From NCBI GenBank assembly GCA_024638915.1, contig JAHEJJ010000009.1, positions 1 through 64,000 on the forward strand: a stretch of DNA of 64,000 nt, written 5' to 3'. Numbering within the stretch: position 1 is the stretch's first letter; every line of letters starts with the position of its first letter. The position numbers and the translations under genes were made by a program. Shown piece by piece: positions 43,376-64,000 of the stretch. The notes beneath the pieces are model-generated. The model did not search any database. It was not told the DNA's origin and saw only the letters and a list, made by a program, of their open reading frames with translations. The DNA is from Robiginitalea sp. (GTDB lineage: Bacteria > Bacteroidota > Bacteroidia > Flavobacteriales > Flavobacteriaceae).

Positions 43376-43401
43376 TATACCCTCAAATTTTGGGGGGTAT
43401 A
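43376..43401 (+). repeat. Upstream 26-bp inverted repeat of the PII-amtB promoter
   Basis: TATACCC at 43376-43382 and GGGTATA at 43395-43401 with a 12-base T-rich spacer, a perfect 7-bp inverted repeat. It matches the copy at 43429-43454 in 18 of 26 positions. The copies start 53 bases apart, close to five helical turns, so they would face the same side of the DNA. Confidence 0.65.
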
Positions 43402-43428
43402 GTTGTAAAAACAATAAAAATGATAAGT

Positions 43429-43454
43429 TATACCCCTTTTTTTAGGAGGGTAAA
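43429..43454 (+). repeat. Downstream 26-bp inverted repeat, overlapping the -33 region
   Basis: TATACCC at 43429-43435, 12-base spacer, GGGTAAA at 43448-43454, one mismatch in the outer arm. Its centre (about 43441.5) lies some 37 bases before the estimated transcription start near 43478, a place typical of an activator that touches RNA polymerase. Confidence 0.65.
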
Positions 43455-43474
43455 TTTAAATCCATATATATTTG
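43441..43474 (+). promoter_or_regulatory. Promoter of the PII-amtB-barrel operon
   Basis: TATATTTG at 43467-43474, an exact -7 box, with only a weak TTTA at 43441-43444 in place of TTTG, 22 bases upstream. A weak -33 with a bound regulator site there fits an activator-dependent promoter. The box lies 23 bases before the PII start. Confidence 0.5.
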
Positions 43475-43497
43475 GCCCCATTAACAATTCTCTAATT

Positions 43498-43836
43498 ATG
43501 AAAAAAGTTGAGGCAATTATCAGAAAATCCAAGTTTGATGACGTGAAGAAAGCACTGCATCAGGTCGAGGTTAACTTCTTCAGTTACTGGGACGTAACAG
43601 GAGTAGGAAATGAAAAACAGGGTCATGTATATCGGGGCATATCCTATAGCACCACCGATATCCAACGCAGGTATCTGGAGATCGTGATTTCAGACGAGTT
43701 TCTGGAAAGAACCGTGAACGCCGTTCTCGATTCTGCTTATACCGGTAACGTGGGAGATGGGAAAATCTTTGTTTCAGATGTTCTCCAGGCCTATCGTATC
43801 AGAACAAAAGAAAACGGCCACGCCGGAATTAACTAA
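43498..43836 (+). CDS. glnB: PII nitrogen signalling protein
   Basis: Trimeric sensor of ATP/ADP and 2-oxoglutarate that controls ammonium uptake and other nitrogen functions. The start MKKVEAIIRKSKFDDVKKAL at 43498 is the family opening; the frame to 43390 is rejected. The 112-residue chain keeps the T-loop GHVYRGISY, in which Y50 corresponds to the uridylylated Y51 of E. coli, and the B-loop TGNVGDGKIFV (about 82-92) that holds the nucleotide. Because it precedes amtB by 25 bases, GlnK would be an equally good name. Twin inverted repeats lie in the promoter. Confidence 0.93.
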   Translation: MKKVEAIIRKSKFDDVKKALHQVEVNFFSYWDVTGVGNEKQGHVYRGISYSTTDIQRRYLEIVISDEFLERTVNAVLDSAYTGNVGDGKIFVSDVLQAYRIRTKENGHAGIN

Positions 43837-43861: not shown

Positions 43862-45115
43862 ATGGACGCAGGTTTATTTACAGCTAACAACGTTTGGATG
43901 ATGGTATGTACAGCACTGGTGTTTTTTATGCACCTTGGCTTTGCGGGACTGGAAATAGGACTTACCAGGCAAAAGAATACCATAAACATCCTTTTTAAAA
44001 ATATATTCATTATAACGGTAGGGCTCCTTATGTATTATATAGGAGGTTTTAATTTAATGTATCCGGGATTTGCAGACGGTTCTTCAGGCATTTTGGATTT
44101 TGCGGGATTTGGCATAGCCATCCCCGAGAATGGTTTGACCACGGATTACGCTGATGGCGGATATACCTGGTGGACAGACTTCTTATTTCAAGGGATGTTC
44201 GCTGCAACCGCCGCAACTATAGTTTCAGGAGCCGTAGCAGAACGAATTAAAATCGGCCCTTTTATGATCTTTACCATATTTTATGTCGGCCTGGTATACC
44301 CCATCGTGGGATCCTGGCAATGGGGAGGTGGATTCCTTTCTACATTGGGTGGAGATGATGGAGGGTTTTATGACTTTGCAGGTTCTACCCTGGTGCATTC
44401 AGTAGGAGGTTGGGGTGCGCTGATTGGTATCTATCTTCTCGGTGCCCGTATAGGCAAGTTCGGTGAGGACGGAAAGCCAAAGGCGATTCCCGGGCATAAT
44501 ATTCCCCTGGCCACTGTCGGTGTATTAATACTCTGGCTCGGTTGGTTCGGTTTTAATGGAGGTTCCGTACTTTCAGCAGATCCGGCTACTACTTCCTTAG
44601 TATTGGTCACAACCTGTCTTGCTGCTGCAGCCGGAGGAGTCGGAGCACTTCTAGTCTCGACCTTTGCTTATAAAAATCTGGATCTCACTATGTTCCTTAA
44701 TGGAATATTAGGAGGTCTGGTAGGAATTACCGCAGGTGCCGATTTGATGTCGCCTAACGAAGCGGTTATCATTGGTTTAATTGCAGGGGCCATTATTGTA
44801 GGTGGTGTTGCGCTAATCGACAGGATACGATTGGATGATCCGGTTGGTGCGGTAACAGTACACCTTATCTGCGGTATTTGGGGTACTCTTGCAGTAGGTA
44901 TATTCGGAAGCATGGCTGGTGGAGAACAGTTCCTGTATCAGCTAACAGGCGTTGCCGCGGCAGGTGTTTTCTGCTGTATCGCATCCTTTATCATCTTTTT
45001 TGCCTTGAAGAAGACTGTAGGAATACGGGTTTCCAAGGAAGAAGAATTGGAAGGTCTGGATCTGCACGAACACGGAATGGATGCCTATGCCGATTTCAGG
45101 ATGAATCAACATTAA
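43862..45115 (+). CDS. amtB: Ammonium transporter AmtB
   Basis: Inner-membrane ammonium channel, trimeric, 417 residues with eleven transmembrane helices. The twin pore histidines are seen in STLVHSVGGWGALIG (about 176-190) and VTVHLICGIWGTLAVG (about 323-338). The phenylalanine gate region is FFQGMFAATAATIVSGAVAERIK near 104-126. The C-terminal tail KEEELEGLDLHEHGMDAYADF is the part that contacts PII. It is in an operon with PII upstream (25 bases), and an intercistronic hairpin precedes the barrel gene. Confidence 0.95.
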   Translation: MDAGLFTANNVWMMVCTALVFFMHLGFAGLEIGLTRQKNTINILFKNIFIITVGLLMYYIGGFNLMYPGFADGSSGILDFAGFGIAIPENGLTTDYADGGYTWWTDFLFQGMFAATAATIVSGAVAERIKIGPFMIFTIFYVGLVYPIVGSWQWGGGFLSTLGGDDGGFYDFAGSTLVHSVGGWGALIGIYLLGARIGKFGEDGKPKAIPGHNIPLATVGVLILWLGWFGFNGGSVLSADPATTSLVLVTTCLAAAAGGVGALLVSTFAYKNLDLTMFLNGILGGLVGITAGADLMSPNEAVIIGLIAGAIIVGGVALIDRIRLDDPVGAVTVHLICGIWGTLAVGIFGSMAGGEQFLYQLTGVAAAGVFCCIASFIIFFALKKTVGIRVSKEEELEGLDLHEHGMDAYADFRMNQH

Positions 45116-45231: not shown

Positions 45232-46356
45232 ATGAAAACGATTACCAACACAAGTTACATAAAAAATCTCCTTTTGCTAGCCATATTGTTGCTCGGAGCA
45301 GGAATATATGCCCAGGAGGAAGAAGAAGAATCAAAGGAAAAGAAATTTTCATTCTCCGGCTCGGTTGACGGCTATTTCAGGACCAATTTCAATGGACTGA
45401 ATAAAGAAGTGATCGATGTAGACAACCTGATCTCATTCGGTCCTACTGCACCGGGTACCGCATTTGCGAATGATCCCGGATTTGCTCTGGGTATGGTTAA
45501 CCTGATCGCCTCCTATGAAGGCGAAAAAGTAGGCTTTGTAGCCGACCTGGTATTTGGTCCTAGAGGTGAAGTGGCTGTATTTTTCTCCGAACCCTCTACA
45601 AATATTGTGAACCAGTTATATGTATTCTGGAATGTTAGTGAGAAAGTTACTTTGACTTTTGGAAATTGGAATACGTTCTTAGGATACGAAGTGATTTCAC
45701 CTGTTGCTAATTTCAACTATAGTACTTCGTATATGTTTTCCTGGGGACCTTTTTCACATGCAGGGATCAAGGCCGATTTTGATCTAGGGAACGACTGGTC
45801 TGCCATGCTGGCAGTTATGAATCCAACCGATTTTACTGAATTCAATCCATTTGCCGAATATTCATTTGGCGCACAGTTGGGTTATTCTGGTCAGTTTCTC
45901 AACCTGATCTATGGTAAGCAAGGTCCTAGTGAGGTAATCAGCGGCGGTGATTTCACCGATACTGATATCAAAGGACTTTTTCAAATTGATTTTACAGGAG
46001 GTTTTGATGTAACTGATTCATTCTTTCTAGGTATCAATGCGACCTACCAGGATGCAGATGGATTAGGCTTTTATGGTGCAGCACTATATCCGCAATTGGC
46101 AACCTCGGATACTTTTACGATCGGACTTCGTGCTGAATACTTCAAAGAAAGAGGCGATTACGGTGCTATTGGAACGGGTCTGGAAGATTCGAGTGTGGTT
46201 GCCATTACGGCTACCGGAAATATTCAGATTGGAGATCTTGCAATAAAACCAGAGATCAGATTCGACAGCGCGTCGGATAACGCTTTTCTTAACTCCGATC
46301 TTGAGGCACAGGATAACCTGGCCTCTTTCGTTCTGGCCGCGGTTTATGCTTTTTAG
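45232..46356 (+). CDS. Outer-membrane beta-barrel protein linked to amtB
   Basis: A 374-residue exported protein with a signal peptide ending near residue 27 (GIYAQ), then an acidic EEEEESKE stretch and about 16 barrel strands, for example FSFSGSVDGYFRTNF, VTLTFGNWNTFLGYE, FSWGPFSHAGIKADF, FTIGLRAEYF, ending in FVLAAVYAF with a terminal aromatic residue. It fits the Bbp2/OmpL-like porin-2 family seen in Bacteroidota. The position after PII and AmtB suggests a role in getting ammonium or another nitrogen solute across the outer membrane; this is an inference from context. A terminator follows 59 bases after the stop. Confidence 0.8.
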   Translation: MKTITNTSYIKNLLLLAILLLGAGIYAQEEEEESKEKKFSFSGSVDGYFRTNFNGLNKEVIDVDNLISFGPTAPGTAFANDPGFALGMVNLIASYEGEKVGFVADLVFGPRGEVAVFFSEPSTNIVNQLYVFWNVSEKVTLTFGNWNTFLGYEVISPVANFNYSTSYMFSWGPFSHAGIKADFDLGNDWSAMLAVMNPTDFTEFNPFAEYSFGAQLGYSGQFLNLIYGKQGPSEVISGGDFTDTDIKGLFQIDFTGGFDVTDSFFLGINATYQDADGLGFYGAALYPQLATSDTFTIGLRAEYFKERGDYGAIGTGLEDSSVVAITATGNIQIGDLAIKPEIRFDSASDNAFLNSDLEAQDNLASFVLAAVYAF

Positions 46357-49644: not shown

Positions 49645-50115
49645 CTAGCCCACATTTCCCGACGTGCTACCGAGTTGATTTTTGGTTATTGGCGCATCCG
49701 AGATCACATCGGAAAGTATAATATTTGTTCGTGTTTCACCATACTGTATAAGCATGTCGATGAATTTCTCCAGGTGGAATTGATCACGTAGGATCACCTC
49801 CATGATTATATTTTCGTTTCCCGTTATACGATAGCAATTCACAACCTCATCTAACATTTTAACCTTTTCCAGAAAAGGTTTTAATTTTCCCATAAAGGCC
49901 TTAAGTGTTATCATGGCTTTTAATTGGTATCCCAGTTTACTGTGAGAAACTCTGGCCGTATACCGTTCAACAATGCCGGTATCTTCCATTTTTTTCACCC
50001 GTTCGGCAATGGCCGGTGGAGTGAGTCCAATTTTCCTGCCAATACTGGAATATGAAGCCCTGGCATTGCGCTGCAAGGCTACAAGAATTCGCCAGTTTAG
50101 GTCATCAATTATCAT
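49645..50115 (-). CDS. Lrp/AsnC-family transcription regulator
   Basis: A 156-residue feast/famine regulator. The N-terminal winged helix-turn-helix is seen in DDLNWRILVALQRNARASYSSIGRKIGLTPPAIAERVKKMEDTGIV (about 3-48), followed by a C-terminal RAM ligand-binding domain (LKAMITLKAFMG, CYRITGNENIIMEVIL). The 125-base gap that it shares with the divergent gene holds a partial palindrome, a reasonable autoregulation site. Its neighbours (IcmF, ilvE and HMG-CoA lyase elsewhere) suggest amino-acid or acyl-CoA control, but the ligand is not known. Confidence 0.92.
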   Translation of the reverse strand: MIIDDLNWRILVALQRNARASYSSIGRKIGLTPPAIAERVKKMEDTGIVERYTARVSHSKLGYQLKAMITLKAFMGKLKPFLEKVKMLDEVVNCYRITGNENIIMEVILRDQFHLEKFIDMLIQYGETRTNIILSDVISDAPITKNQLGSTSGNVG

Positions 50116-62074: not shown

Positions 62075-64000
62075 TTACTTAATAAATAACAATTCTCTAT
62101 ACTTCGCCAATGGCCAGACATCATTTTGGACAAGTTGTTCCAATTTATCACTATGGTAGCGTATCGCATCAAAAAATGGTCTAATCTCATTGCAGTAAGC
62201 AAAGGCTTTTTTATTGAGATCCTGCATCGTATTGGCTCGCTTTCGTGCCTCTGTCATTTGGTCTGTCTTCTTTTTGATATCCACCAAATGCTCTGAAATC
62301 TGTTCAATGATCGAAAGCAGTTCTCCGGCATATTTACTGTAAGCAGCTCCATATATTTCCTTGAGTCCGGTTACATTTTCAATAAGTATGTTCTGGTAAC
62401 CGATGGCTGCGGGAATGATATGGTTATAGACCAGTTCATTATAAACCCTGCCCTCAATCTGCGTTTGCAGAATATACGTATCTAGCTCAACTTCCAGTCT
62501 TGCCTTTACCTCTGCTTCGCTCATCACCTCTGTCCTGGCGAAAAGTTCCAGACTCTTTTTTGAGGTTAATACCTGCACGGCTTCAGGTGTGCTCTTGTGG
62601 TTACTTAGCTTTCGCTTTGCTGCTTCTGCTTCCCACTCAGGGCTGTATCCATCACCATCGAATCGAATACGTTTGGAGGCCTTGATATACTCCCTTAGCA
62701 CATTGAAAACCGCCTCGTCTTTTTTCAGTTTCTTTTGGTTGATCAGCGTATCGACCTCCTTTTTAAATTCCCTGAGTTGATTTGCCACGATAGTGTTCAG
62801 CACGGTCATGGGCTTCGCGCAATTCGTTCTGGAACCCACTCCTCTAATCTCAAATTTATTGCCGGTAAAAGCAAAAGGCGAGGTTCTGTTCCTGTCGGTA
62901 TTATCGAGGAGGATTTCAGGGATCTTTCCTACTACGTTCAATTTGAGTTCGGTCTTCTCTTCCGGGGATAATTTTCCCTGAGATACACCTTCGAGCTCGT
63001 CGAGAACATCACTGAGTTGTTGTCCAACAAAAATAGACATAATGGCAGGAGGTGCCTCATTGGCTCCTAGTCTATGATCGTTGCTGGCCGAGGCAATCGA
63101 CGATCTCAGCAACTCTTCATAGCCATCTACGGCCTTGATCGTATTGATAAAAAATGTGAGGAATTGAAGATTTTTCATCGGGGTACTGCCCGGACTCAAG
63201 AGATTAACCCCCGTATCGGTGGCCAGGGACCAGTTATTGTGTTTTCCGGAACCGTTGATCCCGGCAAAAGGTTTTTCGTGGAAAAGCACCTTGAAATGAT
63301 GACGGTCTGCAACCTTCTCCATGATATCCATCAACAAGAGATTATGGTCTACCGCCAGGTTGGCCTCTTCAAAAACCGGTGCAATCTCGAATTGGTTCGG
63401 TGCCACTTCATTGTGGCGCGTCTTAACGGGGATACCCAGACGTGTACATTCCAGTTCCAGATCCTGCATAAAACTGATAGCTCTCAGAGGTATCACCCCG
63501 AAATAATGATCGTCTAGTTGTTGTCCTTTGGCTGCAGCATGACCTACCAGTGTCCGCCCTGCCAGAACGAGATCTGGTCTGGCATTGGCAAGCGATTTGT
63601 CGATTAGAAAATATTCCTGTTCCCATCCAAGTGTAGCATGTACTTTGGAGACGTTCTTATCGAAATACCGGGCTACAGCGGTCGCAGCAGCATCAACGGC
63701 GTGAAGGGCCCTTAATAGCGGGGCCTTATTGTCCAAAGCTTCTCCGGTGTAGGAGACAAAAACTGTGGGGATACATAAGGTAGTTCCATAAATAAAAGCA
63801 GGTGAGGTAGGGTCCCAGGCTGTATATCCACGAGCTTCAAAGGTATTTCGAATACCTCCACTGGGAAAACTTGAAGCATCGGGTTCTTGCTGTACCAGCT
63901 GACCTCCTTCAAATTTTTCCAGGGCTTTACCATCGGACAGAAGATCGAAAAAAGCATCGTGTTTTTCGGCGGTTGCCCCGGTAAGGGGTTGAAACCAATG
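62075..64000 (-). CDS. Type III glutamine synthetase, 5' end cut by window
   Basis: ATP-dependent synthesis of glutamine from glutamate and ammonia, the GlnN (GSIII) form that replaces or adds to GSI in Bacteroidota. The open frame runs to the right edge and 641 residues can be read from a protein of about 725-730; an internal TTG at 63736 is not the start. At the edge [17 protein letters not shown] and [22 protein letters not shown] are the family motifs that carry ATP and metal ligands. Further in are [33 protein letters not shown] and [17 protein letters not shown] near visible residues 260-320, the glutamate-binding region. It shares the nitrogen theme with the PII-amtB operon 18 kb away. 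Confidence 0.93.

Follow-up and report, generated by a model that had tools for sequence, protein, structure and literature searches.

A two-site operator upstream of PII-amtB points to a nitrogen-assimilation regulon with an unidentified regulator

Overview

Two inverted repeats in the PII-amtB promoter of the window (by which we mean the whole stretch of 64,000 nucleotides analysed here) belong to an operator that points to the cis side of a nitrogen-assimilation regulon, running through the order and into several others, with a regulator that is still unidentified. We observe conservation of the sites, of their spacing and of the target genes they share across families and orders, and find that PII promoters share one helical register with 18 of 26 promoters of type III glutamine synthetase (GSIII). 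In our judgement the two repeats are likely to be bound, one distally and one proximally, by a single DNA-binding protein that regulates nitrogen assimilation, although no binding or expression data exist; we infer that the sites are recognised by a protein, that low nitrogen makes it an activator, and that all groups use the same one. More tentatively, and with rather less than even confidence, we suggest an undescribed global nitrogen regulator of the Bacteroidia, from a protein family not previously linked to nitrogen control, acting through phased dimers five turns apart and with GSIII as a core target in several orders (the class itself is inferred to be Bacteroidia from named relatives).

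Nitrogen control has been worked out for several bacterial groups (NtrC, NtcA, GlnR/TnrA and AmtR), and the Bacteroidota are major degraders of polymers in the sea, in soil and in the gut. The operator offers a direct bait for the missing regulator, together with a list of target promoters, and the tie between a BBP2 porin and nitrogen uptake provides a testable lead on small nitrogen compounds crossing the outer membrane.

A two-site operator in the PII-amtB promoter

A preliminary description of this DNA had claimed twin inverted repeats in the promoter, and their positions (Table 1), the 53 bp between their starts and their identity at 18 of 26 positions all prove exact. It had treated each repeat as a pair of half-sites around 12 free bases; the palindromic arms stand, but the spacer is not free, since the AT-rich centre is conserved too, and the conserved unit is a 24-bp palindrome, ATACCCCTAAAATTTTAGGGGTAT, in a matrix trained on PII upstream regions. 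The proximal site lies over the -33 region, its centre preceding the -7 box by about 25 bp. The box was placed at -12 to -5 following a promoter map of a Flavobacterium, as far as the available part of that source goes (PMC9723704), which puts the transcript start near 43479 and the site centres near -37.5 and -90.5, in agreement (given the assumed box position) with the distances of about 37 and 90 bases claimed earlier. The ATAAAAAT element between the sites is possibly an UP-like or bending element, which is an inference only.

Table 1 Features of the operator, its promoter and related genes on the contig of the window
Feature	Position	Strand	Details
Distal operator site	43376..43401	.	24-bp core 43377-43400; TATACCCTCAAATTTTGGGGGGTATA; 26.0 bits; centre about 78 bp upstream of -7 box
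Element between both sites	43414..43421	+	ATAAAAAT; frequent in PII and BBP2 promoters, rarely seen in GSIII promoters
Proximal operator site	43429..43454	.	24-bp core 43430-43453; TATACCCCTTTTTTTAGGAGGGTAAA; 20.6 bits
-7 box of PII-amtB promoter	43467..43474	+	TATATTTG; position in promoter from PMC9723704
PII protein gene	43498..43836	+	PF00543; start codon at 43498
Ammonium transporter gene	43862..45115	+	PF00909
BBP2 porin gene	45232..46356	+	PF07642
Lrp/AsnC-family regulator gene	49648-50115	-	Pfam
Type III glutamine synthetase gene (part in window)	62075..64000	-	62075-64312 on the contig; Pfam GSIII_N
Pair-model operator match between GSIII and GSII	64343-64407		Same contig, beyond window

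When the window was scanned with up to three mismatches, 18 matches to the pattern were found against 8.95 +/- 4.17 in shuffles, 3 of 100 of which reached this number. Without mismatches only the sites at 43376 and 43429 match, in the window as in the whole genome (3,039,379 bases on 81 contigs). Whole-genome counts with up to two mismatches were 38 and 35, against 37 and 21 for a reversed-pattern control, an excess so slight that degenerate matches mean little.

Conservation in orthologous PII promoters

The PII sample comprised the best 80 loci from a scan of named genomes, or 81 with the window; most of them are titled Flavobacteriaceae or come from genera that we take to belong there. At least 200 bp of upstream sequence were available for 80 of the 81, and dereplication (below 75% identity) left 66. 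A site of at least 10 bits is present in 58 of these 66 PII-amtB loci, compared to 3.1 in dinucleotide shuffles scored with the same matrix, and a pair spaced 51-55 bp apart in 46, compared to 0.00. Absence of the repeats upstream of orthologous PII-amtB operons, which would have refuted the preliminary reading, is consequently not what we find. Prior to dereplication, 71 of 80 loci had a site and 51 a pair; the other nine loci with enough upstream sequence had no site at 10 bits. At the extremes, one Lutibacter promoter (L093) carries four sites at spacings of 52, 54 and 52 bp, and in six PII loci of Allomuricauda, Flagellimonas and Muricauda only the distal site reaches 6 bits.

Target genes within the family

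Given that the matrix was trained on the PII loci themselves, a pattern test at other targets matters more. The search pattern ACCCCTW8AGGGGT, drawn from PII promoters and allowed up to one mismatch, matched in 72 of 149 genomes of the family, against 15 with the reversed control (the latter being our own count of the table). Seventy matched loci were fetched, leaving out four listed matches and those not listed, and in 50 of them the match lies within 400 bp upstream of nitrogen genes: GSIII (11), GSII plus GSIII (10), PII (10), BBP2 plus gltB (8), alanine dehydrogenase (6), a second Amt (2), gltB alone (1), gltB plus PII (1), and gltB plus a small predicted outer-membrane protein (1). The remaining 20 lie away from nitrogen genes, 8 of them within reading frames. 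Around the 70 matches, 38 of 39 adjacent site pairs are spaced 51-54 bp apart and one 105 bp apart. The BBP2 porin belongs to the nitrogen regulon and is possibly an outer-membrane nitrogen channel.

Directly upstream of GSIII, a site of 12 bits was found at 10 of 15 loci of the family, while upstream of gltB a site of at least 9 bits was found in 10 of the 17 family genomes with a gltB match, and none at 9 bits in the other 7. Together with the PII result (58/66), these counts bear out the recurrence of such sites before PII-amtB, glnN and gltBD genes that the preliminary description had led one to look for, and the test of membership in one regulon, an operator common to ammonium uptake, PII, GS and GOGAT genes, was met. 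Its suggestion that the sites report nitrogen state is supported well beyond the locus, by nitrogen-gene targets across the family, the order and other orders.

In the window's own genome, GSIII has its start codon at 64261, on the same contig just past the window, and is divergent from the GSII gene, with an operator match between the two (Table 1). The gltB gene, on another contig, has a site of 20.4 bits located 307 bp upstream of its start, at a position common to five relatives, and it also has a partial pair-model match.

Pfam confirmed PII, AmtB, BBP2, this genome's own GSIII and GSII, and the N-terminal part of GltB, and NCBIfam confirmed GSII, GltB, alanine dehydrogenase and the second Amt (GSII and a GltB fragment scoring below the curated cut-off); the remaining protein names were assigned by eye. 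Neither Pfam nor NCBIfam gave a match for the small predicted outer-membrane protein, to which we gave the name TorF. In some relatives the BBP2 porin is the first gene after an operator pair of its own, divergent from gltB, and in several relatives it is followed by PII. An operator-like site of 27 bits lies 81 bp upstream of an ECF-sigma-like gene, so named by eye, in genome G119 (L106, position about 1500), and none was seen before such a gene among the other fetched matches. At L129, L149 and L150 (position about 1500) a similar palindrome, AACCCTTATTTATAAGGGGT or close to it, is found repeatedly in G141 and G028 beside a repeated 213-aa protein family; these copies lie away from nitrogen genes and are perhaps terminators.

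Extent across families and orders

A sequence-only pair model (R1), built from 64 sequences and more sensitive than the single-site scan, matched 139 of the 149 family genomes at E<=0.01 and gave no match in the other 10; by our own count, about 96 of the 139 reach E<=1e-6. Over a sample of the order it matched 160 of 246 genomes. Matches with E near 0.01 also occur in 0.6-Mb genomes, where they look like noise, and weak matches are therefore doubtful. Twenty of the stronger matches, chosen by hand in five other families of the order, all adjoin such genes (GSIII 11, PII 5, second Amt 3, small outer-membrane protein 1). Elsewhere within the order, the pair-model match at L401 is at no nitrogen gene; outside the order, the match in G150, a member of f3, is not at its GSIII.

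In a sample of the class, 42 of 295 genomes matched at E<=5e-4, comprising 6 of the 9 family members, both members of f2, and 34 genomes of other orders. The best matches of the other orders, at 14 loci from eight families, adjoin GSIII (13) or alanine dehydrogenase (1) in every case, a count that leaves out 20 other matching genomes of these orders. Often only the two inner half-sites, TTTTTAGGGGGT and ACCCCCT, are left there. With the single-site scan at 12 bits directly upstream of GSIII, a site was found at both f2 loci and at none of 13 loci outside the order (f3, f4, f7, f9 and f31); upstream of gltB, none of four loci outside the order had a site. Taken together, the surveys of GSIII sites and of pair-model matches place the operator in several orders but not throughout the class. 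An exact pair pattern matched only 1 of 395 genomes over the class, yet since it picked up only 1 of the 14 family members in that sample and missed the window's own pair, this low count is not evidence of absence.

Spacing, helical phase and mode of action

Nearly all PII sites have their centres 24-27 or 77-80 bp from the start of the TAnnTTTG box. The nearest GSIII site lies 26 bp (4 promoters), 36-37 bp (10), 47 bp (3) or 57 bp (1) from the box in 18 of 26 promoters, and at 17, 21, 45, 55, 63, 79, 100 and 101 bp in the other eight. This corresponds to R 0.74 at a period of 10.5 bp, with p about 8e-7 if the promoters were independent; they are homologous, so the Rayleigh values overstate their independence. 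In other orders the mean phase is 4.8 bp, against 5.0 bp in PII promoters (R 0.58, 27 half-sites). Five GSIII promoters of f107 depart from the common face, with distances of 9-10 and 61-63 bp to the box, and the pooled set from other families has no clear phase (R 0.31, p 0.07). Across 58 promoters, the distal half-sites score 11.1 and 11.0 bits and the proximal ones 9.2 and 5.6 bits, the least conserved (5.6 bits) being the promoter-proximal half-site that overlaps the promoter spacer. In GSIII promoters of genus g127 (L175-L177, L179) the pair appears shifted, by eye, with one half-degenerate site preceding the -7 box by about 25 bp and another following the box, about 52-53 bp from the first.

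That site-to-box distances often step by helical turns suggests an activator. The preliminary description had proposed an activator with one proximal and one distal site, and this gains from the helical stepping and from the weak promoter-proximal half-site, yet in the absence of expression or binding data it has not been demonstrated. In the mechanism that we envisage, one dimer would probably bind each 24-bp palindrome, and two dimers (or up to four sites' worth, as in the one Lutibacter promoter) would be aligned by the five-turn spacing. Once bound, the dimers might engage sigma-A RNA polymerase where the promoter has a good -7 box; an AT-rich contact between the sites perhaps assists, which is likewise inferred.

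A regulator that instead represses, by covering the -33 region and sometimes the -7 box or start region and so blocking polymerase when nitrogen is plentiful, would account for the overlap of the proximal site with the -33 region, for the second, half-degenerate site downstream of the -7 box in the g127 GSIII promoters (judged by eye), and for the several promoters, in f107 and other orders, where a half-site is centred only 2-10 bp away from the box. We nevertheless regard repression as rather unlikely. Conservation is weakest in the half-site next to the promoter, which scores 5.6 bits where each distal half scores about 11, and which falls below 2 bits in 16 of 58 promoters (two of these without any site); in addition, the distances shift in steps of full helical turns, to as far as 57 bp from the box. 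Palindromes can also pair in RNA, and the repeats could then act as an attenuator or terminator, but their position is upstream of the -7 box, in distant relatives a site is often reduced to one of its halves, the fold z-score is a mere -1.48 with 17 of 200 shuffles as stable, and no Rfam match reaches the gathering score (one sub-threshold snoRNA match was taken as spurious). With neither folding nor Rfam giving support, an RNA role was rejected as very improbable. The abundance of three-mismatch matches in the window (18 against 8.95 expected) would be in keeping with chance repeats in AT-rich DNA; this explanation is refuted by conservation at 58/66 PII loci, in 139/149 genomes and at 20/20 and 14/14 loci adjoining such genes, and can practically be dismissed. 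Activation through paired dimers, an inference, remains our preferred reading.

Comparison with known nitrogen-control systems

In Gram-positive bacteria, GlnR/TnrA (MerR family) controls glutamine synthetase, ammonium uptake and glutamate synthase through a palindrome with about 14 bp between half-site centres (box TGTNAN7TNACA). The gene set and the half-site distance resemble those seen here, whereas the present operator reads ACCCC...GGGGT and stands in tandem at five turns; the GlnR/TnrA box was found in 6 of 80 PII promoters (0.7 in shuffles), is absent from the window, and membership was not met. In cyanobacteria, NtcA (CRP family) switches on nitrogen genes by way of a palindrome that precedes a sigma-70-type promoter (box GTAN8TAC). 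This layout and these targets are similar to ours, and yet the NtcA box occurs at chance level (4 of 80 PII promoters, 4.0 in shuffles) and not in the window, and membership was again not met. The physiological targets of NtrC/sigma-54 are also the same, but a sigma-A-type -7 box is present here instead; the sigma-54 element TGGCN7TTGC was found in none of 80 PII upstream regions, so that this system too fails the membership test.

Lrp-type control of gltB, gdhA and glnA is reported for Sa-Lrp of Sulfolobus acidocaldarius, a glutamine-responsive regulator of ammonia assimilation, in the part of that study available to us (PMC3584215), and offers a further likeness; it differs in that six genomes with the operator described here have no Lrp/AsnC protein found. 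In Prevotella ruminicola 23, amtB, glnK, glnN and gltBD respond together to ammonium supply, and the accessible portion of the study names neither regulator nor operator (PMC5552732). Nor is a regulator of these genes in Bacteroidota named in what was available of the three papers cited (PMC9723704, PMC3584215 and PMC5552732). More widely, in open-access literature, no operator or regulator of these genes in Bacteroidota was recognisable from titles and the beginnings of abstracts, subscription papers lying outside this scope.

The search for the regulator

The preliminary description had envisaged a co-occurring regulator family; looked for by neighbourhood and by co-occurrence, none could be identified. 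In flanks of up to 4 kb around 80 PII-amtB loci, inspected through clusters and by eye, no site-linked DNA-binding gene recurs, and the sole DNA-binding gene repeated there is AsnC-like, at three loci of which two have no site and one has no upstream sequence. Similarly, no DNA-binding gene recurs beside the 70 pattern matches or beside the 20 matches of other families, where one XRE-like gene lies near L380. From half-site spacing alone, a MerR regulator might be considered (spacing like that of GlnR/TnrA), or an Rrf2 regulator (spacing like IscR type 2 sites), each by analogy with known motifs only.

Our leading candidate was at one time an Lrp/AsnC protein (possibly the AsnC-like protein U, encoded by almost every genome of the family), on account of GSIII-linked lrp genes, the palindromes before them, and Sa-Lrp, which binds gltB, gdhA and glnA promoters in a glutamine-responsive manner, according to the part of the source at hand (PMC3584215). 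Of 19 GSIII upstream regions from outside the family, 10 have an Lrp/AsnC frame immediately before GSIII, and so do 20 of 20 further loci of this kind that were chosen by hand, many of which show, by eye, a CCTAAA-N3-TTTAGG-like palindrome before lrp. Moreover, G010 has U as the only Lrp found and retains intact alanine dehydrogenase sites. However, PF01037 has no match in six genomes from other orders whose GSIII carries the operator (G460, G509, G438, G409, G351 and G488), although they are 94-100% complete and PF01037 was found in 11 of 14 control genomes; G399 and G658, likewise without a match, are left out of this count. No member of the family falls in the clade formed by the GSIII-linked Lrp proteins, and with the flavobacterial matrix the palindromes before lrp reach 13.5 bits at best (several fall below 0) and have a core one base longer. 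The window's own Lrp (Table 1; group W) has no counterpart in G119, a genome with strong sites, nor among the matches of G010 and G002. At E<=1e-20, U itself has a counterpart in 147 of the 149 family genomes (some of these matches being weak or partial), and so common a protein says nothing by its presence. The test that an Lrp/AsnC protein be present wherever the operator is was not met; principally because of the six genomes and the separate clade, Lrp/AsnC was dropped as leading candidate and now appears improbable, though the regulator could still have changed from one order to another.

In G104, G135 and G032, PII-amtB likewise has an Lrp match about 8 kb away. Deep-branching members of the phylum (L221-L239) have an Lrp/AsnC gene before GSIII, often preceded in turn by a CCTAAA-N3-TTTAGG-like palindrome, and this arrangement is perhaps a second, Lrp-controlled GSIII system.
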